Of a stretch of 35,277 bases of DNA, positions 8,428 through 20,752 are shown in pieces. Both the position numbers and the translations under genes were made by a program. Source of the stretch: a bacterium (GTDB lineage Bacteria > DYJV01 > JALVYZ01); the NCBI GenBank assembly GCA_027037705.1, contig JALVYZ010000237.1, forward strand, positions 1-35,277, written 5' to 3'. Numbering within the stretch: the stretch's first letter is position 1; every line of letters begins with the position of its first letter. A model generated the notes under the pieces. The model ran no database searches, had not been told where the DNA came from, and worked only from the letters and a program-made list of their open reading frames with translations.

Positions 8428-9861
8428 CTATATTATCTTTATCTTTATATTGTCTGTGTTTTCTGCGAGGCCTATGGCGAAGGGGTAGACTGTTTGTGAG
8501 GCTCCCTGTAGCAGGGCGCAGACTTGCTCTCCTCTGTTCTCCGGGGCTCTATTGATGTGTTCTGCGACTTGTTTCCCCATGTACTCGTTTAGGTAGGGGT
8601 CGCTGTGTGTTAGGGGGAATATGTAGTAGTTCTTGCCCCTGTTCTTATTCTTTTTATTCATTATATCTACTGTGTTCTGGAGGTTTAGGAGCGTGTACGG
8701 CGTCCAAGCGATGTATAGTGGTTTTTCTCCGCCCAGTATCCTCCAGAGTAGCTCAACCACGTAGCCCGATGACTGACCCGTGAGCGTTATTACGGGGATG
8801 CATTTGTCCTCAACTATGTCGCCTAGTCCCTGTACGATGATGCTTAGTCTCCCGATAAGGGGCTCAGTCCTAATATCCTGTACTTGGAAATCCCTTACTC
8901 CGAGGAAATCGAGTACTTGTTTGTATATTGTCTTCTCGATTTCTAGTAGCTTGTTCTTAAGTTCTTCTAGCGAGTGCGTGGTCTTCTTTAGTACCTTTAG
9001 TACTTCCTTGGGGTTCCCGCCTCTATCTATTAGTGGTATTTCTTCTAGTATTTCTGAGAGATGCGAATACATCGATGTCATAGAATACATGTGCTCTAGG
9101 TATTTTGCTGCATCTAGATTCTCAGGCTGGATATCAGTAGGCGCTTCATCTCTTTTATCGAGTAGTTGTCTGATAGGGTCCGCGGCTATGCTGTGTAGTA
9201 GCTCGCCGCCTAGTGTCCCTCCCCACTTATAATGGAGTATGTTCACTAGGTAGTAGGTGACAAGGTCTATGAATAGGGCCATAATGCCCTTGGCGGCGGC
9301 ATCTACACTTACTTCTCCTAACATGTAGCCAGCTACTAGGTTCTGAGCAGCTGCTGCGTGGAGCTCGAAGCCTTGCCGGGTTAGGCCGGAGAGCAGGGCT
9401 GTTGCGAGAAGGGCTGCTGGGGGATCGCCGCCTAGCTCACTGGTACAGGTCTCCAGGGCAGCGCTGATACTCTTTCTGCGTATAGCTGCTAGGTTCTTCT
9501 GCACAGATAGGTGAGCCATAGCCATGTATCGCGGGTCATAAATTATATCGAGGGGTTTAGAGATAATATTCGCTATCACCGTGTCGCTAGGCAACGGTGA
9601 GAGAGGATAAGCCCGAAGATATAGTAAGGCCCTATTAAGAGCTATGGCGCCGGAGCCCTTTTCCCTGTGGCCTAGCCTTAGGCCGAGTAGCCTAGCAATC
9701 CTCGAGCCAAGGGCGATATGACCAATGTAGATAGCATCATCACTGCTATCCTTGTATCCTAGGTTATACCTCGTATAGCTGAGATACTTTAACAAGTACC
9801 CGAAGAAGTTTCCTCCACTACTGGGCTTGATTTCCAGGAGAAGCTGCTCCAACGCGACCAC
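8428..9861 (-). CDS. Unknown protein with C-terminal CARF-like domain
   Basis: I do not recognise the 477-residue family. Residues 1-280 are predicted mainly helical, with a hydrophobic helix near LFIDLVTYYLVNIL. Residues about 285-320 look like a coiled coil rich in K, E and L. Residues 354-477 have an alternating strand-helix pattern that recalls a CARF domain: PVITLTGQSSGYVVELLW (first strand, then a TG-x-S loop), KPLYIAWTP (second strand), and CALLQGASQTVYPF followed by a short final strand. CARF domains bind cyclic oligoadenylates made by Cas10. RQGFELH in the helical part fits the loose HEPN R-x5-H spacing, but this is weak. It is second in an operon, 13 bp after its partner. The start is GTG 9861 or the nearby TTG 9852, which lies better behind GGGAGGT. 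Confidence 0.6.
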   Translation of the reverse strand: MVALEQLLLEIKPSSGGNFFGYLLKYLSYTRYNLGYKDSSDDAIYIGHIALGSRIARLLGLRLGHREKGSGAIALNRALLYLRAYPLSPLPSDTVIANIISKPLDIIYDPRYMAMAHLSVQKNLAAIRRKSISAALETCTSELGGDPPAALLATALLSGLTRQGFELHAAAAQNLVAGYMLGEVSVDAAAKGIMALFIDLVTYYLVNILHYKWGGTLGGELLHSIAADPIRQLLDKRDEAPTDIQPENLDAAKYLEHMYSMTSMYSHLSEILEEIPLIDRGGNPKEVLKVLKKTTHSLEELKNKLLEIEKTIYKQVLDFLGVRDFQVQDIRTEPLIGRLSIIVQGLGDIVEDKCIPVITLTGQSSGYVVELLWRILGGEKPLYIAWTPYTLLNLQNTVDIMNKKNKNRGKNYYIFPLTHSDPYLNEYMGKQVAEHINRAPENRGEQVCALLQGASQTVYPFAIGLAENTDNIKIKII

Positions 9862-9874
9862 ACCTCCCGGTTTA

Positions 9875-11197
9875 TTATTTACAGGAAGCGATTCTTCGCA
9901 AGGCGTCGCTGTCGCGGCCTAGACACCTAATGTACAAATGGTACGAGGTGTCCTGGGGTACTCTGAGCCGTCCTTCCTCGTCAACTACCTTTTTTACGTA
10001 GTTAGACGCCTTCATTGACTCAAACATCTTTCCTATATTGTTATTTTTAGTGTTTTTGTTGCTCGTTCTACTTAGTGCTATGAGGGTCTCGGGTATAAGT
10101 ACGAAGCATATATGCTCTATCCCCTGTATCCTCGTCAGGGTGCATATAATATTGTTTAGGAGTTGCTTGGAGTAGTCGTAGAGGGGTAGGAGATACACTG
10201 TCCTCGGCTTATAACCTGCTATAAGATCTCCTAGCTTGTCTTCCCTGTACTCTGAATCGATATTGGCAATGCATGCCTCCATATGGTGTCTATTTCTTAG
10301 CTCGGACTCTATTGTCTCCGATGACTCTTTTATGAGCTCGTTAGAGGCTATGAGTATCCTTAATACTCTTAGTGCTTTCGCCAGCCTAGCCGCCACGTCT
10401 ACTGCTTTGTGTATGGGTTTTTCCTCCGCAGATTTTTCCTCTGTGGATGACTGAGCAGCGGCTCTACGGTACTGTGGCAAAACCACTAGCACTCCTTCAT
10501 CAGCCTTGCTGATTTGCTTGGCCTCCTCGACAGCGTCTTGGATGAAATCGCTGGGTATGCACTCGTGGAGCCTGAGAGGATCCTTGCATGCCTTGTCGCC
10601 TTGGCCTCCTCGTTGACCAGACCGGAGTATCTCGGCTAAGTCACTCATAGCGCGCTCAGAGAGCTCGCTATTACTGAATAACAGCATGTAGTGTAGCGCG
10701 TTGACTAGCTCCGGGCAGCACTTGGCTTCCTCGAAGAACTGGTTTACGAGGGCTTTTTCCAGCCCCCCCTGCCCACTACTGTTTTCTTGTAGGCAGCACT
10801 TAAGGAGCTGCTCGAAGGAGTCGGCTGGCAGCCTTACCGGGGTTCCTAGGGGCAGCTGCTTATTGAAAGCATCTCTGTGCTCACTCTTGAGCATGTAGAC
10901 CGGGCTAAGCCCTAGGTCGGGGTCGCGTGCCGCAACCTTCCGTGTCTCATTAGCTCCGCTGACCTCTTCTACTAGCAAGTAGGTGTGAAATCCGTTCCCG
11001 CAGTCAAGCTCTACTATTAGGTCTATTTCGCGTAGTGCCTCGCTGAGAATATAGGCGAGCTGGGGAGGAAAGACGTTCACAGATGGTGCGCAGTAGGTTA
11101 CTTTGTACCCCAGTATAGTGCAGTCACTATTCGAGGTAGACAACGCTCTGCAGCCTCTCTTCCTATACCCCTGGTCAAAAATATAAATACTTTCCAC
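9875..11197 (-). CDS. Unknown CRISPR-island protein, possible N-terminal CARF-like fold
   Basis: A 440-residue protein I cannot place in a family. It begins with strand MESIYIFDQG. After helix PPQLAYILSEALREI comes DLIVELDCGNGFHTYLLVEE (D65, G69), which resembles the D-x-T-H-G strand-loop of Csx1/Csm6-type CARF domains; the match is only in pattern. The middle is cysteine-bearing and helical. The C-terminal half has strands VLVVLPQY and TVYLLPLYDYS. It leads a two-gene operon with the CARF-like gene at 8428-9861. The GTG start at 11197 is preceded by GAAGAGAG. Between a type I-A and a type III-A operon, a role in cyclic-nucleotide signalling or as an effector is the best guess, not a demonstrated function. 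Confidence 0.55.
   Translation of the reverse strand: MESIYIFDQGYRKRGCRALSTSNSDCTILGYKVTYCAPSVNVFPPQLAYILSEALREIDLIVELDCGNGFHTYLLVEEVSGANETRKVAARDPDLGLSPVYMLKSEHRDAFNKQLPLGTPVRLPADSFEQLLKCCLQENSSGQGGLEKALVNQFFEEAKCCPELVNALHYMLLFSNSELSERAMSDLAEILRSGQRGGQGDKACKDPLRLHECIPSDFIQDAVEEAKQISKADEGVLVVLPQYRRAAAQSSTEEKSAEEKPIHKAVDVAARLAKALRVLRILIASNELIKESSETIESELRNRHHMEACIANIDSEYREDKLGDLIAGYKPRTVYLLPLYDYSKQLLNNIICTLTRIQGIEHICFVLIPETLIALSRTSNKNTKNNNIGKMFESMKASNYVKKVVDEEGRLRVPQDTSYHLYIRCLGRDSDALRRIASCK
11177..11189 (+). promoter_or_regulatory. TATA box for the gene at 11228
   Basis: AAAATATAAATAC is a good archaeal TATA element. It puts transcription start near 11210, about 15-20 nt before GTG 11228. It lies inside the first codons of the divergent gene on the other strand. 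Confidence 0.55.
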
Positions 11198-11227: not shown

Positions 11228-11656
11228 GTGAGCGAAGTGCCAAAGGCAATAGTTATTGGAAGGCATAGGATGATGCCAGCCCAGGTAGAGGAGCTCCGAG
11301 AGAAAGGCATAGACGCGATCGAGCAGGTAGCGAAGATAGAAGAGGACGAAATACCGCAGCTCGTGGAGACGTGGGCCAGGAACGATGTGAGATACGTAGT
11401 TATCCAGGCACTACCACTAGCACTCCTATACAAGCTGTTCCGGGAGGCAAGGAAAGCAGGCATAGATCTAATAATAGCTTGGATGGATACAGTCGCGGTA
11501 ACAGAGGACGAGGAAGAAGCAAGGAAACTAGTCCAGGAAAAACCTGATAGGAGAACTTACCTCAAAGCACCAGGCGACAAAGCCATAAGAGTCATCGAGC
11601 ACAGGAAATGGATGAAGATAAAAAGGCTAGAAGTAGAGCTAGAACCCCTACAATAG
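11228..11656 (+). CDS. Small protein resembling Csx16/Csx20-type ring nucleases
   Basis: A 142-residue single-domain protein. Strand AIVIGRH (7-13), then helix MPAQVEELREKGI; later strand YVVIQALPLALLYKL (56-70); then LIIAWMDTVAVTED and the basic C-terminal EHRKWMKIKRLEVELEPL. The plan of a short strand ending in (S/G)RH, a helix, then a hydrophobic strand leading into xLPxxLL recalls small CRISPR proteins of the Csx16/Csx20 group, several of which cut cyclic oligoadenylates. That match is by pattern only. Its place beside CARF-like genes and a GGDD Cas10 would suit an off-switch for signalling. It is transcribed alone on the + strand and converges with the ATPase operon, whose last stop lies 5 bp away. 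A generic phage-type small protein is the alternative. Confidence 0.5.
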   Translation: MSEVPKAIVIGRHRMMPAQVEELREKGIDAIEQVAKIEEDEIPQLVETWARNDVRYVVIQALPLALLYKLFREARKAGIDLIIAWMDTVAVTEDEEEARKLVQEKPDRRTYLKAPGDKAIRVIEHRKWMKIKRLEVELEPLQ

Positions 11657-11661
11657 GACAA

Positions 11662-12363
11662 CTAATCATCGGCAAAAACAACGCAAACCGGGCCAACATC
11701 GCTGCCTAGCTCGATATACTTAACCCCACCATTCTCTTCCATTATGCTGCTACACAGCGAGCCCTCCCTATCACAGAAAAGGGCTACACTGATACCAGCA
11801 CGGAGCCTCCCATACATGTTTCTGAGCCCATCCACTATACACTCTATAGCGCTGATAACTCGTTGGCACTTGTCGCTATGCCTAGCTCCCCTATAGCACC
11901 GCTGAACCATGTTGACGAGATCCCTGCACTTGATACGAGGGTTAAACAAGCAAATAGTATTCTCCTTTATAACGAATTCCCCTAGCAGGGACACTACTCT
12001 TCCAATGAACCCTAGTTCATCCGGATAAGTTTTGCATATATATTGGACTCTCTCGAGACAGCGAGCCGCCAGCTTAGCGGACGAAGCAGCTTCTCCAAGA
12101 TTAGGGAAAATTATTGCAGCACCATAGCCTCTAGGAGACCCTGCAGTATATGCCTGGGTCACTTTTACCAGTTTCCATAAACCTTTTGACCAGTCTTTGC
12201 CGCTGAATATTTTGTTAAGTGATTCGCAGGCTTCACGAGCATAGTTCTTATCAATCCTGCAGTCCTGTGCTGAGGGGTCGCTGTGCTTGTTGCACAGGTT
12301 AAACACATCTAGGTCAATGATGTAGACGTAGTTCTCGGTAATGTCTCTATTGGGGTTGGTCAA
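11662..12363 (-). CDS. Unknown protein with degenerate palm/GGDEF-like layout
   Basis: The 233-residue protein matches no family I can name. Its N-terminal strand VYIIDLDVFNLCNK (D17, D19) looks like the metal-binding first strand of palm polymerases and cyclases (GGDEF, Cas10). After a helical stretch comes SPRGYGAAIIFPNLGEAASS (77-96), which follows the spacing of a GGDEF hairpin (R-x-GGDEF-x-I-x-x-P), but the acidic residues are replaced by YGAA. RAGISVALFCD further on fits the later core strand. If this reading is right it is a catalytically dead or altered palm domain, perhaps a nucleotide sensor. It is the last gene of a three-gene operon and overlaps the ATPase gene by 17 bp, which implies coupled synthesis and probably a complex. 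Confidence 0.5.
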   Translation of the reverse strand: MTNPNRDITENYVYIIDLDVFNLCNKHSDPSAQDCRIDKNYAREACESLNKIFSGKDWSKGLWKLVKVTQAYTAGSPRGYGAAIIFPNLGEAASSAKLAARCLERVQYICKTYPDELGFIGRVVSLLGEFVIKENTICLFNPRIKCRDLVNMVQRCYRGARHSDKCQRVISAIECIVDGLRNMYGRLRAGISVALFCDREGSLCSSIMEENGGVKYIELGSDVGPVCVVFADD

Positions 12364-13531
12364 AGCTCTTTTCCTCCGAGGAATGCTGCGAGAGGGCTAG
12401 TGCCTCGGCGAGAGCAAAGGCGGCATAGGGCCTCTGCTCGTAGCGGAAGGCCCTCTTTGCGCGGCTGAAGCGAGCGTAGTACACTGTAGCGTTGAAGCGG
12501 GATGCACCGCTAACAATGTAGGGCGAATGGGTAGTTAGGACAACCTTAACTTCCTTCCCGTTGCCTTGTAGTAGCCTTATGTATCTGCCAAGGATATATG
12601 CGAATAGGAATTGTTGCGGGGGAGAAAATGCTTCCTCGGGCTCCTCTATAACCGCGACTATTGTATTCTCCCTCTGCGCGAAGACATAGGGCAGAATGCC
12701 TAGCAGCAAGTAGGACGCCACCGACGAGGAAACCACGTCCGGGGGCACCGTGGCTGTAAGCCTATTGTCTTGTACTAGGAGAGCTAGGCTCCCGAGATCT
12801 ATTGATAGCGCGGGTTTTCCTACGTGGCCCGTATCCGATATGGTTACGTCGACGCTTAGGGGGATAAGGTCCTCTGCGGATATTTTCTCATCAATGTCTC
12901 CCAGTAGCTCGTTAAGTGCGTCCACTGCTCTTTCGATGCTCTCTTCTTGGGCATCTAAGAGCTTCTTCAGTAGCCATGGGTTGGCCCTAGCCTTGTATAT
13001 TAGTGCCTCGGCTAGTAGTGGGTGCATGAAGCCCCGGAGAACATTACCATGGTTCTTGATGTGTTGCTGCAGGTCTTTGCAAAGCTCTTTGAGTTCCTGC
13101 ATCCTGTTTGATTCTTCCTCGGGTATGTACACGGATAAGGAGTCAATCATATTACACAACGTGCCGACATCTTGCTCTATTCCCTCAATGCTCTCACTGA
13201 TGCTTTTCTCGAGGACAAGGCTCTGGCGCAGCACTATGCGGTAATCAGGCGCCATATATGCTACAATATCGCTTCCCAAATCCCCCCTAATTTCCCCGCC
13301 CGCGTAGCATAGGTTGCCGCGCGATGCATGTAGGCATACAGAGGCATTGTCTTTCCGCCATAGTCTATCGAGTTCGTTTACATCCCGGCTGGCAAGAGCA
13401 TATATTGTTCTAGCTATTATAGACTTACCTGTGGAGTTGAAGCCAGCAATCACTGTATAATCGTCCACCTCTAGTTTGAAGTCATCGCCGAAAAGCTTAG
13501 AGCCCGTTACTTCAAGCAACCATTTACCCAT
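12347..13531 (-). CDS. ABC/SMC-type ATPase (AAA_21/OLD-like), probable defence ATPase
   Basis: A 394-residue ATPase of the RecF/SMC/OLD-like group. Walker A is GFNSTGKS (30-37). Residues about 120-200 form helices that could make a short coiled-coil arm. A Walker-B-like VIEEPEEAFSP lies at about 294-304, and the H-loop TTHSPYIVSG has H335. There is no TOPRIM nuclease domain after the ATPase, unlike OLD proteins. Such ATPases are common in prokaryotic defence systems, where they sense invaders or activate a partner. Here both partners are unknown: one overlaps its start by 25 bp and the other overlaps its end by 17 bp. That tight coupling points to a three-component system inside the CRISPR island. 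Confidence 0.8.
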   Translation of the reverse strand: MGKWLLEVTGSKLFGDDFKLEVDDYTVIAGFNSTGKSIIARTIYALASRDVNELDRLWRKDNASVCLHASRGNLCYAGGEIRGDLGSDIVAYMAPDYRIVLRQSLVLEKSISESIEGIEQDVGTLCNMIDSLSVYIPEEESNRMQELKELCKDLQQHIKNHGNVLRGFMHPLLAEALIYKARANPWLLKKLLDAQEESIERAVDALNELLGDIDEKISAEDLIPLSVDVTISDTGHVGKPALSIDLGSLALLVQDNRLTATVPPDVVSSSVASYLLLGILPYVFAQRENTIVAVIEEPEEAFSPPQQFLFAYILGRYIRLLQGNGKEVKVVLTTHSPYIVSGASRFNATVYYARFSRAKRAFRYEQRPYAAFALAEALALSQHSSEEKSFDQPQ

Positions 13532-14028
13532 ACTCCTCTTCCTCGGGGAAACCAGGGAATAACTAGCGGGGAAAGAATAAATACATCTCCAAGGAGTCCC
13601 TCGTTGAGAAAGATGCTGTGTACAATCTGGTGAAGCATCATATCCCTCGCTAGCTCTATCGATGCAGTAAAGCAGCCCCTTCTACGCTTTACCGAGAACC
13701 TCCTACCACCCTCTAGCACACCGTATGCCCTGGTACAGAGGACTAGGCTACTGCACCCAAGCACTATACTCCTCACGCTGGTCTCTGGGCAACGTGAAGG
13801 CTCCGTAAAGACTATCAAGCCTAGTTCTCTACTAGGGCCACACACCCACGTGCTAGGCATGAGAGGAGAGACCCCGGCCTCGATAAGCCTCAGTACAAGC
13901 TCTACGAGGCTCTCTAATCTACTGCATCCAAGTATTGTGAGCCCCCGCTTTACCTCTATGCTGCACTCTGCGAGATGTCTCCCTATGGCTTTGGGCTCTT
14001 CTACGCGGCCGTATACGAGTAGGGGCAC
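13507..14028 (-). CDS. Unknown first gene of the ATPase operon
   Basis: A 173-residue protein with no recognised domain. It is rich in leucine, cysteine and arginine, with short predicted strands (LTILGCSRLESLV, GLIVFTEPS, SIVLGCSSLVLCT) and a C-terminal hydrophobic run ending PWFPRGRGVWVNGCLK. I annotate GTG 14028, which has AAGGA about 6 nt upstream. The frame stays open and protein-like for at least 16 more codons upstream (IIGAKIAGIGIENKDS) but has no ATG, GTG or TTG, so the true N-terminus is uncertain. It leads the operon with the ATPase and the palm-like protein and is divergent from the Csm operon across a palindromic TATA element. Confidence 0.6.
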   Translation of the reverse strand: MPLLVYGRVEEPKAIGRHLAECSIEVKRGLTILGCSRLESLVELVLRLIEAGVSPLMPSTWVCGPSRELGLIVFTEPSRCPETSVRSIVLGCSSLVLCTRAYGVLEGGRRFSVKRRRGCFTASIELARDMMLHQIVHSIFLNEGLLGDVFILSPLVIPWFPRGRGVWVNGCLK

Positions 14029-14088: not shown

Positions 14089-14106
14089 AGTATAAATATT
14101 TATACT
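14089..14106. promoter_or_regulatory. Palindromic bidirectional TATA element
   Basis: AGTATAAATATTTATACT is a perfect 18-bp palindrome containing TATAAATA on both strands. It lies between the divergent ATPase operon and the Csm operon. Its centre is about 33 bp before GTG 14131, giving a nearly leaderless type III transcript. Leftward transcription would begin near 14070. Confidence 0.75.
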
Positions 14107-14130: not shown

Positions 14131-14586
14131 GTGCCTCCGTCCTTGGCCTCAACTACTAGAGCCATAGATTATTACTCGGCGCGGTCCTGCAGGAGCCTCT
14201 GGCTCGATAGAACTGTACAGTACCTTAGCAGTAGTAATGTCAATGAGGTTAATCTGGTTGAGTACGTTCTAAGGGGGCGGTTAACCAATATAGCTAGCTC
14301 GCCCTCAGCTGCCCGCAGGATACATGAGGCTGCTATTAGTATTCTTGACCGTATCGCGCAGGGGAGGTATGGCAGCGAGATATTCGCTGAGCTCGCTGGT
14401 CTCGAGGTCTTTGCCCGTTACCAGGCCGAGCGCAAGCAAATCGATAAATGCCTAGCCGACATCGTCGCTGATGTTGTAAGAATGCTTGCCGAGCTAATAC
14501 GCAGCGGCGATCCTAGTGTTAAGCGTGTTGCGCGGAGGGCTCGTCTCGTCTTCGATTCCCTAATAGTGGGTGTAAGGCCGCGCTAA
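14131..14586 (+). CDS. csm2: Probable type III small subunit (Csm2/Cas11-like)
   Basis: A 151-residue helical protein leading the type III operon, with size and composition like Csm2/Cmr5 small subunits (SILDRIAQGRYGSEIFAEL, LADIVADVVRMLAELI). Small subunits line the type III complex opposite the Cas7 backbone and contact crRNA and target. The sequence identity of such subunits is low, so this rests on position and helical make-up. GTG 14131 is well placed behind the palindromic TATA element. Csm3 follows after 14 bp. Confidence 0.68.
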   Translation: MPPSLASTTRAIDYYSARSCRSLWLDRTVQYLSSSNVNEVNLVEYVLRGRLTNIASSPSAARRIHEAAISILDRIAQGRYGSEIFAELAGLEVFARYQAERKQIDKCLADIVADVVRMLAELIRSGDPSVKRVARRARLVFDSLIVGVRPR

Positions 14587-14600
14587 GAATAGCAAGAGGG

Positions 14601-15593
14601 GTGTGTTGCCCCGTGAGCCAGTCTGAGTTCTTCTCTCTGAAGAGGCGTCTCCTGGGCTTCTACGAGTTCGAGCTAAGTGTTAGGGTTAGGACGGGTCTCC
14701 TTATTCGCAAGCCTAGCCAGGCCCAGCTAAGTATAGGCGGCGCCGATGTATGGCCTATGAGTATTGAGCGCTACTATGAGTGCGGCAACGAGAGGCTTGG
14801 TGTAGAGGTGCCGTATATACCTGGCTCGAGCCTGAAGGGGCGTATGAGGAGTCTCTTGGAGCAAGCTCTTGGAACGGAGTACGTCACTACTGATGGTAAG
14901 ATATTCCAGCATGTCCGTAGCATTGATGCATTCTTCCGTAGCTATGTTGATGAAGTAGAGGCGCGCCACAAGTTCATGGAGGATGTCTTGAATAGGTGCC
15001 CGGTTGACGAGGTCTTTGGCTATGCAAGCTTTAACTACTTGCAGCACCTCCGGGGCAAACTACAGCTAGAAGAGAATAGTGCCAAGAAGCTAATGGAGTA
15101 TCTTGCCCCGACACGTCTCTATGTCGAGGACCTCTACCCGGATGAGGGCTATGTGTGCAAGCTCTATAAGCGCCTTGAGCGCCAGGTTTATCTAAGTGAC
15201 TTCTTGGAGGAGAAGCCCGAGAACAGAATCGATAGGTTGACTGCTGCAGCGGATCCTCGTCTCTCTGTCCGCGTTAAGCCCGGTGTAGTGTTCAGGGGGC
15301 GTATACAGCTACTAGTCTATGATAACGACTGCGAGGCTTGTCCCAGCGAGGAGCAGCTATGCGTCGAGAGGAACCTGGGCCTCGTTATCCATGGGCTTAG
15401 GCTCGTTGAGTCCCTGGGCCTCGGTGCTGCTACTAGCCGTGGCTACGGTAGGGTCGGGATTAGTGTAGAGCGGCTAGTGTTCTACGAGGCTCCTGGTCTC
15501 GAGGGGAGAGAGCTACTAGGCAAGCCAACGCCCGTCACCGAGCTAGAGCCCAGTAGCGAGATTGTTGCAGCTGCATGCCCTAGTAAAGGGTAG
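14601..15593 (+). CDS. csm3: Csm3, type III-A Cas7 backbone and target RNase
   Basis: A 330-residue Cas7-family protein. RVRTGLLIRKP (28-38) leads to SIGGADVWPM; D49 in IGGAD matches the aspartate that Csm3 uses to cut target RNA every six nucleotides, so cleavage is probably active. IPGSSLKGRMRSLLE (73-87) is the family signature. GLGAATSRGYGRV near residue 275 is the glycine-rich C-terminal loop. It is longer than bacterial Csm3 (about 220 residues) because of a middle insertion with cysteines (NDCEACPSEEQLC) that may bind zinc. GTG 14601 is annotated; GTG 14613 is an alternative with better ribosome-site spacing. Confidence 0.88.
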   Translation: MCCPVSQSEFFSLKRRLLGFYEFELSVRVRTGLLIRKPSQAQLSIGGADVWPMSIERYYECGNERLGVEVPYIPGSSLKGRMRSLLEQALGTEYVTTDGKIFQHVRSIDAFFRSYVDEVEARHKFMEDVLNRCPVDEVFGYASFNYLQHLRGKLQLEENSAKKLMEYLAPTRLYVEDLYPDEGYVCKLYKRLERQVYLSDFLEEKPENRIDRLTAAADPRLSVRVKPGVVFRGRIQLLVYDNDCEACPSEEQLCVERNLGLVIHGLRLVESLGLGAATSRGYGRVGISVERLVFYEAPGLEGRELLGKPTPVTELEPSSEIVAAACPSKG

Positions 15594-15601
15594 TTGAGGC
15601 C

Positions 15602-16609
15602 TTGAGCACATCTTCTCCGCCGACGAGGCGCTACCTATACGTTGTGGTTGAGTTTAGGTCCCAGTTTAGTAGCTATTCTCCGAGCCTTGCCGAGGGCTAC
15701 ATAGGCTCGACGAGCCTGCATGCAGCCGTAATGGCTGCTGTAGCTATGCTGGGCCACGGCATTAGTGATGGGCTGGCCGAGGCGAGGTTTTCCTCCCTGC
15801 TACCAGTGGCCCGGGGTAGTAGCGGCTACGTTGCTCTCTTTCCCCCGCTACGGCTACCTAGCTATGGCAAGGTTCCCCGCGGCTTCTGGACGCCCCGTGC
15901 AGTATCCCTGGTACTGTCCGTGCTTAGTAGTTGCTCGGGGAGAGGCGCCGATATCGTCCTGGAGAGAGGCGGGGATAACTATGTTGTAAGGTGTATGGAT
16001 GGGGGCGAGTCCCGGGAACTGGTATACTCTCGGGAGACCGGGGTCTTCGCGGCGCCTGGCGAGCAGCTAGATTTTAGGCCACCGGGGTTCCGTAGCGATA
16101 GGCATAGGCTCGTTATCAGCAGGGTTACTTACAGCGCTACGCCCTTCATGATACCAGTTGTTGAGCCTAGGAGCCCGTACTGGTTCGTAGCAGAGCTACG
16201 GAGCGAGCAGCTATGCGGCACCGTGGTAGAGGCGCTGAGGCTAGCCGAGCACCTCGGAATGGGGGCTCATAGGAGCATAGGGCTCGGGAGAATAAGGATA
16301 ATTAGCTATGAGTGCACAGAGTCGCCGCCAAGCTTCCTAGCAGGTAGCCGGGGAGGCGGCATCGGGGTATCACTGGGCCTCCTCTACCCCGAGCAGGGGA
16401 GCTGTAGTGTCTACTACGGCGAGACTGCCTTGTTCGGTGCTTATCGGGGCTACGGCGGTGTGGTGATTAGCTTCCGGAGGCCCCTGGTAAGGGCACTTGC
16501 CCCCGGCAGTATTGTTGGAACCGATTGCAGGGGGCGGGTCATTAGGGGCAATGGTTATCCCTACGTGTATTCGTTCAATCCCATTGTGTATCCGGTTGCC
16601 CCTGTGTAG
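15602..16609 (+). CDS. csm4: Csm4, type III-A Cas5-like subunit
   Basis: A 335-residue RAMP protein placed between csm3 and csm5. It has an RRM-like start (YLYVVVEFRSQFSSY), a Cas5-type helix entry (GYIGSTSLHAAVMAAVAML), and a glycine-rich loop GMGAHRSIGLGRI near residue 220 that contacts the crRNA 5' tag. Csm4 caps the crRNA handle and anchors Cas10. The ending, with YSFNPIVYPV, is typical of the family's last strand. The TTG start lies 8 bp after csm3. Confidence 0.85.
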   Translation: MSTSSPPTRRYLYVVVEFRSQFSSYSPSLAEGYIGSTSLHAAVMAAVAMLGHGISDGLAEARFSSLLPVARGSSGYVALFPPLRLPSYGKVPRGFWTPRAVSLVLSVLSSCSGRGADIVLERGGDNYVVRCMDGGESRELVYSRETGVFAAPGEQLDFRPPGFRSDRHRLVISRVTYSATPFMIPVVEPRSPYWFVAELRSEQLCGTVVEALRLAEHLGMGAHRSIGLGRIRIISYECTESPPSFLAGSRGGGIGVSLGLLYPEQGSCSVYYGETALFGAYRGYGGVVISFRRPLVRALAPGSIVGTDCRGRVIRGNGYPYVYSFNPIVYPVAPV

Positions 16610-16624
16610 CGAGGCATAGGAGCC

Positions 16625-17746
16625 ATGGAGCAGAGTAGTTATAGGCTATTGCTGAGACCCCGTACACCGCTCCACGTAGCCTCCGGGGAGAAGACGGTCA
16701 TAGGCATAGACTCGGTGATACACTACGGGAAGCTCTACGTAGTGGACGTTGAGTGCACTGCGAGAATATATGCAAAGCTCTACGGCGCCGAGGCCCTCCT
16801 AGCCAGTAACGCCCGAGCCATAGACCTCTTTAGAAGAGTTCTCGGCCGATACAGGCCCGGGGTTCTTAGCTGCACCCCCTACCGCCTAGTAGTCGGGCTA
16901 AGAACGAGAACGCCACCCCGTGGCGCCGAGGTCTCGCTTCCACAGAGCACCCTAGTACCGGGCTCGAGCATTAAGGGCGCTCTACGCACGGCACTACTCT
17001 ACGCCCTCGTGGACGCCGAGCCTAGGGAAGCCTTGGAGAGGATTAGGAAAGGGGTATCCAGGATAGTCCCGGGCCAGCCCCGAAGCCTACTAGGAGCCGC
17101 TGACCCCGTGGAACAGCTCCTAAAAGGCTCAAAGCCCCACGGCAGGGGTAGGTTCATCTACGATGCTGCCCGCCTCCTCGCAGTTAGCGACCCCCTGCGC
17201 CACAGGGCCTCCCTAGGGCTCTACGCTTTTCGGACGATACACGTTAACGACGGCCGCCCGGTTAGCCTAGAGTACGTCGTCGCCCTGGACCCCGGCGCGG
17301 AGATAGAGTATGAGCTGAGGCTCTACAAGCCCTCCTACAACACGCCTGTGAAGCAGCCTTGGATAAAAAGCCTACAGGAAAAAGACAAGACAATAAGCAT
17401 CGATACCCTGCTCCGGGGCCTCGCCCTGTTCTCGGAGACCCAGATAGCGAGCGAGCTCGAGAGAATAGGTGAGCGCTTCCCGCGGTACAAGAGCTTCCTA
17501 GAAGACCTGGGGAAAATGAGAAGCAGGAACTGTTTTCCACTACGCCTCGGCTACGGCGCAGGCCATGCATCGAAGACCCTCCTACCATGGCTGAGGCGAC
17601 GCGACCCCGGGCTCGCCAAGCGGCTCGAGGAGCTACTCTCGCGGCACTATGGCCGCGTATGGGATAGTCTCACAGATACCTTCACCGATCACAACGGCTC
17701 CCTCCTCGGCGTGGGCTGGGCCACACTCTGCATAGAGGAGAGGTGA
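16625..17746 (+). CDS. csm5: Csm5, type III-A Cas7-like head subunit
   Basis: A 373-residue RAMP protein. It begins YRLLLRPRTPLHVASGE, the usual Csm5 opening (TPLHIGSG-like). STLVPGSSIKGALRTALLYAL (108-128) is the conserved loop-helix, and LRLGYGAGHASKTLL near residue 310 is the C-terminal glycine-rich element. Csm5 caps the 3' end of the crRNA. Its stop codon is TGA 17744-17746, overlapping an ATG (TGATG) that would be the natural start of cas10 but leads to a stop after seven codons. Confidence 0.88.
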   Translation: MEQSSYRLLLRPRTPLHVASGEKTVIGIDSVIHYGKLYVVDVECTARIYAKLYGAEALLASNARAIDLFRRVLGRYRPGVLSCTPYRLVVGLRTRTPPRGAEVSLPQSTLVPGSSIKGALRTALLYALVDAEPREALERIRKGVSRIVPGQPRSLLGAADPVEQLLKGSKPHGRGRFIYDAARLLAVSDPLRHRASLGLYAFRTIHVNDGRPVSLEYVVALDPGAEIEYELRLYKPSYNTPVKQPWIKSLQEKDKTISIDTLLRGLALFSETQIASELERIGERFPRYKSFLEDLGKMRSRNCFPLRLGYGAGHASKTLLPWLRRRDPGLAKRLEELLSRHYGRVWDSLTDTFTDHNGSLLGVGWATLCIEER

Positions 17747-17752
17747 TGAGCC

Positions 17753-20752
17753 CTGGTTGGCAGGATTGAGGAGGTAGCGCTACACGGCCTACTACACGAT
17801 ATCCATAAACCCCTTGCTAGGCTGCTTCAAGTCTATAGAGGATGCGACATAGGAGAAATAGCTAAGAGGATAGCTGAAACGGCGCGGGGCTATGAGCTAG
17901 GAGACGAAGATATAGAGGGCTTCAAGGACTACGTAATCAAAGTCCTAGAGAAGGTTGAGGAGAATGGCCACGGGCTGCGCAGAAGCCTCGTCAACGAGTT
18001 CGCCAAGGATTCGAGCGAGCCTAGGGACTTGATAGAGGTCGCTATAAGGCTTGCCGACGAGGAGTCGGGGCTAGAGGACATAACGACCAGGATTGCGAAC
18101 TCCTCGCTAGAACCGCATCTCACTCCATTCCTCAACCCTCTCGCCCTGCTATTCGCCTCCGGGTTCTCCAGCCACGACGTTGCCGAGCTAAACCTAGATG
18201 ACGCCAGCATAGTGATGAGTAGTGATAAGCGTAAGTGCCTATTAATGACTAGCCAGTGGTGCAGGCAGAGACTACAAGAGTTCCTAGAAAGGGTTGAGAG
18301 AAGCGATACAGCGGCACTAAGAAGCATCCTTGGCGGCAATCACTGGCACCCAGTGAGGCCGCTTAGGTGGAAAGAGCCTAGCAGAGCCGAGGAGATCTCA
18401 GCGCTCTACGGTGCCCGAGGCTATAGGGAGGCAATCGTGGACTACACTAGTGTCGCGGCAAGCTTGTTGGCGGGGCTCTATAGGCTCAGAGCTGCTACGA
18501 GGAGCCTAGGCAACCGCCTCGACACTGTTAGGTCGCTGCTAGGGGTGCTCCGTCGCAGCCTCCTCCTGGTACCCTCGAGTATCCGTAAGGGCTCCTCGGG
18601 GCTAGCCCTGCCAGAGATAAGCCTCTATGCCCATAGCCGCGTAGTGGCTGGCTTCGCCTCCGCCATAGCTGCTACTGGGAGGAGCCCGGGCTGCTACAGG
18701 CTTGTACTTCTAGACATAAACGGTATACAGCGCTACATAACTAGGCACCGCGTAGTAAGCGCAGCGGTGAAGGCTTTTCGTGGCAGAAGCCTCCTAGTAG
18801 AGCTCGCCCAGAGAGCCGCTGCGAACTTCGTCTTATCGAGACTGGGTCTTGCCTGGAGCAGTGTCTACACATACGAGGGAGGCACGGTATCGATAATAGC
18901 GCCGTGCACCGAGAAGCTCGAAGAAGTACTAGGAGAGCTCGAGGAGAGGTTCAGCGAGGAGTTCGGGGGATACCTCGGAGTAACAGCTGTTGCTAGCCGG
19001 GAGCTAGAGGTAGGGCCGGGCACGTATAGCTCGAGGTACAGGTTCCGCCCCGAGGACGAGAACAGCTTTGCCCACGTCCTCTCGGAGACGCAGCGCATGC
19101 TCTCAGCCAGGAAGCTCAAGAGACAGACACATAGCCTAGAACAACTAGGGCCCGAGGAGCTCGAGTACGACCCCCTCGTGGAGGAAAACACGCCCCGGAG
19201 AGAATACGTGGGAGTAAGCGGTGAGCTAGGCGCTGAGTACTGGAGACTAGTCTCAAGCGACGACGCGGCAGCAGCCATAGTCGAGCACGGCGGGGTTTCA
19301 AGGGATACTCATAGAGCCCTCGTAGCTGGCAGTAGCGCCCCAAACCTGTTCATGATAATAGAGCTCTACTTGAGCGGCGATGGCTGCGAGAAAGCCATCG
19401 AGGAACTAGCAGGGAGGGTAGCTGAGGCACTACTCGGCTCCAAGGAGAGACGCTACGATATAATCCCTATTCATCGCGGCCAGGAGCTAAGAATAGGGAT
19501 TATAGAGCTACCAAAACTATGCACGGTATACATACTGTTAGCGTTGCACACGCTTAGCCCGGAGCAGAGCATTGACTGGAGACTCGTGGAGACAATCATG
19601 GGTATGCTGGCTGAGAAGCCCCTAGATGGTAAGGAGCTAGGGATAGAGGAGGCGCTCATAGTGTTCTCGTCGGTGAACATTGTTGAGGAGTTCCTACCCA
19701 GCGAGGAGACGGTGAGAAACCTGGATAACCATGTAAGGAGCTGGCTGAGAGGAACTAGGTACAGGATAGGCTTCGACTGGGTAGCAATCAATACACGCTA
19801 CCCCCTAGTGCAGGGAGAACACCGGGTCCAGATAAGGAGCCTAGACGAGGCAGCAGAGGCCACCGGGCTCATAGCCCTAGTCAAGCTCGATGCAGACAAC
19901 GTGGGCAACACCGTATTCTACATGGCATCCTCTCCCTCGAGGCTAGCAACGCTAAGCGAGATCCTAGCAACTACCTTCGGGCTCCTAAGCTACAAGCTAC
20001 TAGACCTAAGCAGCAACTACAACGACAGTGTATACGTCGTGTTCATAGGAGGCGACGACGCAGCCTACTTCGGCGAACTAGTAGCAGCAATGCAGTACGC
20101 CACGGACATAACGCGCCTAGCAAACTCGATGCTCCCAGGACTCACGATAAGCGGGGCAATAAGCATAGAGGAGCCAAAGCTCCCCCTTTATCTAGCTTAT
20201 TACCACGCACTAGAGCGCCTAGAAAAAGCAAAGAACGAGCCAATAATAGTACTAGGAGGCAACGAGCCAAGAGGCATAGTAGCAATAACCCAGATGACAA
20301 AGCCAATAACACTCTGCCTCAGAGAAGACGACACAAAGAAACCCGTAAAGATAGAGACAATAAGCTGGCAAACACTAGAAAACACACTACGAGAACACCA
20401 ATCAATAAGCGACGAGACCCTATGGAAGAGGACAGCAAAGCTAGTAACCCTAGTAGCGGACACGCTCGCAGAGATAATGAAGAAGCAAAAATGCAGCCTC
20501 ACCGGCACAGAGACAGCTAGAACCCTAATAGCGTATACATACTGGCGCGAAAGAATAGGCCAAGCACCAGGCCAAGAAGAAAACAACGTAGACAAAATAC
20601 TAGAGAAAATAACGGGCACCAGGCCGAGATACCCACCAAGCCAGCCAAACAACACCAAGGAACGATACAGGCTCTACACAATACTACAACTAGCCAGAAA
20701 CCCGCTCAACATAATATACCAGCTCCTAAGACTCCGCAGACAAACAACTTAG
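17753..20752 (+). CDS. cas10: Cas10/Csm1, type III-A large subunit and cOA synthase
   Basis: A 999-codon frame with the Cas10 layout. HD pair H15-D16 (HGLLHDIHK) supports single-strand DNase activity, though the usual glycine after HDI is histidine. The first palm domain has LVLLDINGIQRYI (D321). The second has LVKLDADNVGN (D713, D715) and the intact cyclase motif GGDD at 766-769 (VVFIGGDDAAYF), which makes cyclic oligoadenylates. The N-terminus is odd. The frame has no ATG, GTG or TTG between the stop at 17747 and TTG 18029, yet this stretch encodes the HD motif. I start at CTG 17753, six bp after AGGTGA. Removing one C of CCC 17751-17753 would join ATG 17746 to this frame and give a normal start, so an indel or read error is possible. 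The last 450 bp are G-poor. Confidence 0.92.
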   Translation: MVGRIEEVALHGLLHDIHKPLARLLQVYRGCDIGEIAKRIAETARGYELGDEDIEGFKDYVIKVLEKVEENGHGLRRSLVNEFAKDSSEPRDLIEVAIRLADEESGLEDITTRIANSSLEPHLTPFLNPLALLFASGFSSHDVAELNLDDASIVMSSDKRKCLLMTSQWCRQRLQEFLERVERSDTAALRSILGGNHWHPVRPLRWKEPSRAEEISALYGARGYREAIVDYTSVAASLLAGLYRLRAATRSLGNRLDTVRSLLGVLRRSLLLVPSSIRKGSSGLALPEISLYAHSRVVAGFASAIAATGRSPGCYRLVLLDINGIQRYITRHRVVSAAVKAFRGRSLLVELAQRAAANFVLSRLGLAWSSVYTYEGGTVSIIAPCTEKLEEVLGELEERFSEEFGGYLGVTAVASRELEVGPGTYSSRYRFRPEDENSFAHVLSETQRMLSARKLKRQTHSLEQLGPEELEYDPLVEENTPRREYVGVSGELGAEYWRLVSSDDAAAAIVEHGGVSRDTHRALVAGSSAPNLFMIIELYLSGDGCEKAIEELAGRVAEALLGSKERRYDIIPIHRGQELRIGIIELPKLCTVYILLALHTLSPEQSIDWRLVETIMGMLAEKPLDGKELGIEEALIVFSSVNIVEEFLPSEETVRNLDNHVRSWLRGTRYRIGFDWVAINTRYPLVQGEHRVQIRSLDEAAEATGLIALVKLDADNVGNTVFYMASSPSRLATLSEILATTFGLLSYKLLDLSSNYNDSVYVVFIGGDDAAYFGELVAAMQYATDITRLANSMLPGLTISGAISIEEPKLPLYLAYYHALERLEKAKNEPIIVLGGNEPRGIVAITQMTKPITLCLREDDTKKPVKIETISWQTLENTLREHQSISDETLWKRTAKLVTLVADTLAEIMKKQKCSLTGTETARTLIAYTYWRERIGQAPGQEENNVDKILEKITGTRPRYPPSQPNNTKERYRLYTILQLARNPLNIIYQLLRLRRQTT

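Follow-up and report, generated by a model that had tools for sequence, protein, structure and literature searches.

An OLD/AriA-type ATPase gene and two small partner genes beside csm2: a candidate accessory module of type III-A CRISPR systems in Thermoproteota

Most known outputs of type III CRISPR systems are proteins that carry a CARF or SAVED sensor, among them the Csx1/Csm6 CARF effectors, whose genes are type III ancillary genes found beside cas10. A different arrangement is that of PARIS, in which an OLD-like ABC ATPase, AriA, is encoded beside a small partner gene for a Toprim nuclease, AriB; AriA holds the nuclease until it is triggered, and the triggers are phage proteins such as Ocr (PMC12409363). 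A related ABC ATPase core is found in OLD nucleases, Gabija GajA and retron PtuA, which have a C-terminal Toprim nuclease. Small RNase-like proteins from type III loci are represented by a CRISPR-associated NYN ribonuclease (PMC11346440), the abstract of which names no ATPase. Here, we describe a locus whose novelty is that type III accessory genes are joined with an OLD/AriA-type ATPase pair. A literature search returned no description of such an ATPase–partner module; surveys of CRISPR-linked genes may list some of the families without a function, and those of Shah in 2019 and Shmakov in 2018 reportedly may already include some of the trio families, which leaves us unsure of priority.

The window, by which we mean the whole stretch of 35,277 nucleotides that was analyzed, carries type I-A genes at 0.3–7.2 kb (Csa3-like, Csa5, Cas7, Cas5, a Cas8-position gene, Cas3' and Cas3''), CRISPR repeats at 7.5–8.1, 20.9–21.6 and 23.6–24.2 kb, and csm2-3-4-5-cas10 at 14.1–20.8 kb. 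The trio is thus embedded in a CRISPR island, as a preliminary description made from the letters alone had claimed, and the same description's account of three ORFs overlapping by 25 and 17 bp is borne out by the ORF coordinates:

11662–12363, minus strand: 233-aa gene in the B slot, with the N-terminal strand-Asp motif YIIDL and a suspected PIN-like fold
12347–13531, minus strand: gene for the 394-aa OLD/AriA-like ABC ATPase, without a Toprim domain; ORF confirmed
13421–13444, minus strand: Walker A motif GFNSTGKS in the 394-aa ATPase
13507–14028, minus strand: 173-aa gene, partner A; ORF confirmed
14089–14106, no strand: perfect 18-bp palindrome AGTATAAATATTTATACT between csm2 and the trio
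14131–14586, plus strand: csm2, divergent from the trio (PADLOC Csm2 E 1.6e-7)
14601–15593, plus strand: csm3 (TIGR02582 over cut-off)
15602–16609, plus strand: csm4 (PADLOC Csm4 E 4e-11)
16625–17746, plus strand: csm5 (TIGR01899 over cut-off)
18029–20752, plus strand: cas10/csm1 (TIGR02578 over cut-off), with a GGDD cyclase motif

The bin that holds the window is assigned to a phylum with one other genome. The GH38 gene of the window is 99% identical in genome G225 and 81% identical in G060, both of the family Pyrodictiaceae, and the 24.3–35.3 kb side of the window is collinear with G060. Given this identity and collinearity, the window is best read as a mis-binned contig, Pyrodictiaceae DNA that seems to have been placed in an unrelated, probably bacterial, bin, and the decisive searches for relatives were centered on G060 and not on the window's bin. 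G225 gave no ATPase match in the search of the order described below; either this MAG is incomplete or the strain lacks the island.

A second copy of the trio lies on a Pyrodictiaceae MAG contig (L002) whose island shares 87% DNA identity with the window over 7.9 kb. There, too, the genes start with GTG, ATG and TTG, and they overlap by 25 and 4 bp. Comparison of the two copies gives dN/dS values of 0.47 (173-aa gene), 0.14 (ATPase gene) and 0.22 (233-aa gene), with csm2 at 0.18 and csm3 at 0.13, and from these values all three trio genes are under purifying selection; we regard gene order and conservation as established. The palindrome AGTATAAATATTTATACT is unchanged in L002, occurs once in the window even when up to three mismatches are allowed, and appeared in none of 100 shuffles. 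It can be read as a pair of divergent archaeal TATA boxes that overlap and serve csm2 and the trio; with a TATA box on each strand, the suggestion that the trio and the type III genes share a promoter palindrome holds for this lineage. The palindrome is absent from more distant loci and, being present in the window and L002 only, was rejected as a general feature of the module. A scan for bacterial sigma-70 promoters, a model unsuited to archaea, gave matches at chance level.

The middle gene had been called an SMC/OLD-like ATPase, and its family is firmly assigned: the 394-aa product is an ABC/SMC-type ATPase (Pfam AAA_15, E 5e-13; AAA_21, E 8e-9) that keeps a Walker A motif (GFNSTGKS), a Walker B motif (VIEEPEEA) and an H-loop (TTHSP). 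Its best PADLOC profile is AriA of PARIS (E 1e-13, residues 184–340), which six of the nine examined members of its clade match, and its best PDB match is the OLD nuclease 6p74 (E 8e-6), with the retron Ec78 ATPase at E 0.007. The locus therefore resembles PARIS in its closest named profile and in placing a separate OLD-like ABC ATPase gene beside a small partner gene, but it differs in being archaeal, in being locked to type III CRISPR loci, in having the extra partner A, and in a partner without a Toprim or AriB match, of which a modeled relative looks PIN-like. While OLD nucleases, GajA and PtuA share its ABC ATPase core, none of the clade ATPases carries their C-terminal Toprim nuclease: these proteins are 300–394 aa long, their H-loop lies close to the end, and the Pfam matches stop at about residue 341. 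Unlike Csx1/Csm6, which are present in some of the ATPase loci (several encode Csx1-type CARF proteins), the trio gave no match to a CARF or SAVED domain with Pfam, PADLOC and NCBIfam profiles, and no HEPN domain was detected. Searches of plasmids and viral contigs with the ATPase gave no match. In six members of the clade (L012, L013, L015, L016, L017 and L070), the Walker A motif reads GxN[SA][ST]LKS, with Leu replacing the last Gly, while Walker B and H-loop are intact; given this Leu-type motif, ATP turnover may differ across the clade.

The likeness to AriA allows the module to be read as a guard of the PARIS type, which would sense that a virus is inhibiting the type III complex and kill the cell once Csm is blocked. 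AriA being the closest named profile, the triggering of PARIS by Ocr and other phage proteins (PMC12409363), and control shared with csm2 would all fit such a guard; we nevertheless consider it quite unlikely, since no profile identifies the partner as a Toprim protein.

Turning to the distribution of the ATPase, a search of 214 genomes of the order with the A2 ATPase profile matched nine genomes, eight of them in type III loci (type III genes adjoin the ATPase in G060, G174, G065, G118, G130, G128, G180 and G221); the ninth match, a fragment, neighbors a CRISPR array and a Csa3-like gene. Extending the search to 398 genomes of the phylum added G369, G561, G576, G379 and G289, where the ATPase likewise adjoins type III genes, the other matches being mostly generic ATPases of 415–540 aa with no csm gene within about 3 kb of DNA. 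In a phylogenetic tree, 16 type III-linked ATPases of Thermoproteota form one clade (support 87/87) apart from 14 generic superfamily ATPases, with one change of label between type III-linked and generic; shuffles gave 10.3, and none of the 500 came as low. All 16 members lie in type III loci, and the ATPase gene is usually divergent from csm2. Because type III loci fill well under 1% of these genomes, this linkage is not chance; the recurrent adjacency of the ATPase to csm or cas10 across genomes is established beyond it.

These searches bear on whether the trio is a separate defense system or a type III accessory, the two options given in the preliminary description. PARIS, Septu and Gabija, which are related ATPase pairs, act as free-standing systems, and an independent system that merely shares a defense island might be expected on that ground. 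The 214 (order) and 398 (phylum) archaeal genomes yielded no clade member outside type III/CRISPR surroundings, however, and among 290 genomes sampled for their relation to the bin none reached E 1e-14 except the window's own copy. An independent system is for this reason very improbable, and the accessory option is supported, every examined clade ATPase lying in a type III locus; a trio confined to places outside defense regions was looked for in other genomes and not encountered. Within the order, Csm3 exceeds the curated cut-off in 19 genomes, and the ATPase lies near csm2 in at least 9 of these 19, several contigs ending at the locus. Several III-A genomes of the order with long flanks on both sides (L107, L108, L110, L111 and L119 among them) have no detectable ATPase. 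In another locus (L117, 12066–14468), a transposase-like gene sits between csm2 and the ATPase–partner pair, and the partner ORF is just 85 aa, as if interrupted.

That the trio forms a three-gene system was upheld for the genes and not for the unit: the conserved core of the module is the ATPase with a fast-evolving small partner, and the family of the 173-aa protein occurs also without the ATPase. A small co-directional gene lies at most 47 bp from the ATPase gene in 14 of 16 loci (one truncated). Most loci have a gene of 150–194 aa within 47 bp on the 3' side of the ATPase, and in two deeper loci a gene of 238 or 250 aa precedes it. The sequences of these slot partners diverge fast. Close to the N terminus, 11 of the 12 tested partners (YIIDL of the window included) have a hydrophobic strand and then an Asp, versus 21 of 392 other long ORFs; this motif was picked after inspection of the partners. 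Neither the 173-aa nor the 233-aa protein matched a family in Pfam, NCBIfam or PADLOC, in agreement with the preliminary description; housekeeping families were among those looked for and were not matched.

Structural clues to the slot partners come from a model of the L015 partner, one of five alignable partners (pLDDT 72.9, pTM 0.73), the AlphaFold2 model of the 233-aa protein itself (pLDDT 37) being left unused. Structure matches of the L015 model include RNA-free RNase P (Z 6.3, rank 1), PAE2754 (Z 5.5, rank 4) and a TA complex (Z 4.5, rank 7); the entries 7og5, 1v8p and 7vwo we take to be PIN proteins. All PIN matches have Z < 8 and compete with Rossmann methyltransferases, the remaining matches being mostly Rossmann enzymes. 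The invariant residues of the modeled family are D9, the first PIN acid, and one Glu only, and a sub-threshold NYN match (E 0.0012) was obtained for one relative of the partner; no partner in the window or its relatives matched a Toprim or AriB profile. A PIN-like fold of the slot partners is plausible from the model. Foldseek gave a best E of 2.5e-3, to methyltransferases with TM about 0.3, which we distrust, and none at E 0.001.

The 233-aa protein has sequence relatives in the sister MAG only (75% conserved in L002). Against the modeled partner family, hhalign gave E 0.35, and in a separate direct comparison about one in five shuffles reached its score; its proposal as a sequence homolog of those partners is unsupported, the agreement being only in slot, strand-Asp motif and predicted element order. 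On these three points, it is suspected to be the partner in the PIN-like slot. A likeness of GYGAAIIFPNL to a degenerate GGDEF/mCpol cyclase was also considered for this protein and dropped, no profile matching at E <= 10.

An RNase-like partner is also what would be expected if the module belonged to the Csm machinery, with the ATPase and a PIN/NYN-like RNase trimming crRNA or remodeling or recycling the Csm complex. This is the main rival to an effector arm, crRNA trimming above all: csm2 nearly always neighbors the ATPase gene, the weak NYN match comes from a partner relative, and the CRISPR-associated NYN ribonuclease is proposed as a trimmer of crRNA intermediates in a type III system (PMC11346440). 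We judge it unlikely all the same. The III-A genomes without a detectable ATPase indicate that the ATPase is not needed for Csm function, and the fast evolution of the partner is more typical of an effector or an arms race. Moreover, we know of no requirement for an OLD-like ATPase in crRNA trimming.

The family of the 173-aa protein, partner A, is established. The protein matches profiles of III-A-linked small proteins from seven other loci (hhalign E 3.6e-5, probability 71%), and in a direct test the protein and its L002 copy each outscored all of 5000 shuffles; the remaining top ORFs from beyond the training set are likewise small genes of type III loci in this order. An alignment of 12 partner A sequences has two invariant cysteines (C22 and C35) and a tail ILKPxxIP, for which the window has ILSPLVIPW. 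The gene is divergent from csm2 in L111, L113 and L115, which have no detectable ATPase, and directly 3' of cas10 in L119; it is thus a III-A partner in its own right. By these comparisons, the 173-aa gene is a member of a III-A-linked family of variable position, for which Pfam, PADLOC and PDB gave no credible match.

On the side of the Csm complex, Cas10 has GGDD in 10 of the 11 ATPase-bearing loci with a readable Cas10 (the window counted), so a nucleotide signal should be made. The cas10 frame of the window is open at 17746–18029 on the plus strand, 5' of the first ATG, GTG or TTG, and there encodes an HD motif, LLHDIHKP; an unusual start codon or an assembly error may account for this.

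The linkage to type III loci, the cyclase-competent Cas10 and the likeness to AriA together favor an effector arm. The trio is probably an undescribed working part of a type III immune system; more specifically, we propose, with a confidence that we put at about even, that it serves the type III-A (Csm) CRISPR systems of Thermoproteota as an accessory module in which the ATPase controls the PIN-like partner. For the catalysis, trigger and target we infer the following course. The ATPase, of the OLD/AriA kind and without Toprim, would bind the PIN-like partner and keep it inactive, in the way that AriA restrains AriB in PARIS; a signal tied to Csm/Cas10 activation would switch the ATPase; the switched ATPase would free or activate the partner; and the freed partner would cleave RNA, adding an output to type III immunity. 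Partner A, because it is also encoded next to csm2 or cas10 where the ATPase is absent, would be the likeliest link to the Csm side. The broader proposition, that type III CRISPR in Thermoproteota commands a PARIS-like ATPase–nuclease switch without a CARF domain, is a tentative one that we hold at somewhat less than even confidence. If true, it would define a new branch of type III output, operating through a new kind of nucleotide sensor or through direct protein coupling to Csm via partner A. A Csm-linked module without a recognizable sensor, whose ATPase is related to PARIS and OLD, suggests that CRISPR signaling is joined to ATPase-gated abortive systems, and the trio supplies three small and defined proteins, probably thermostable, for testing.

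Other genes of the island lie between the trio and the type I-A set. A 142-aa gene at 11228–11656 on the plus strand, opposite in strand to the trio and situated between it and the pair described next, is 96% conserved in L002 with a dN/dS of 0.09; no family was found for it, and its identification as a Csx16 ring nuclease was discarded, as TIGR02620 did not match. The pair, genes of 477 and 440 aa on the minus strand (8428–9861 and 9875–11197), has no Pfam, PADLOC or NCBIfam match and is conserved in L002. The C-terminus of the 477-aa protein is slightly CARF-like by eye, and the two genes are a possible further type III accessory pair.
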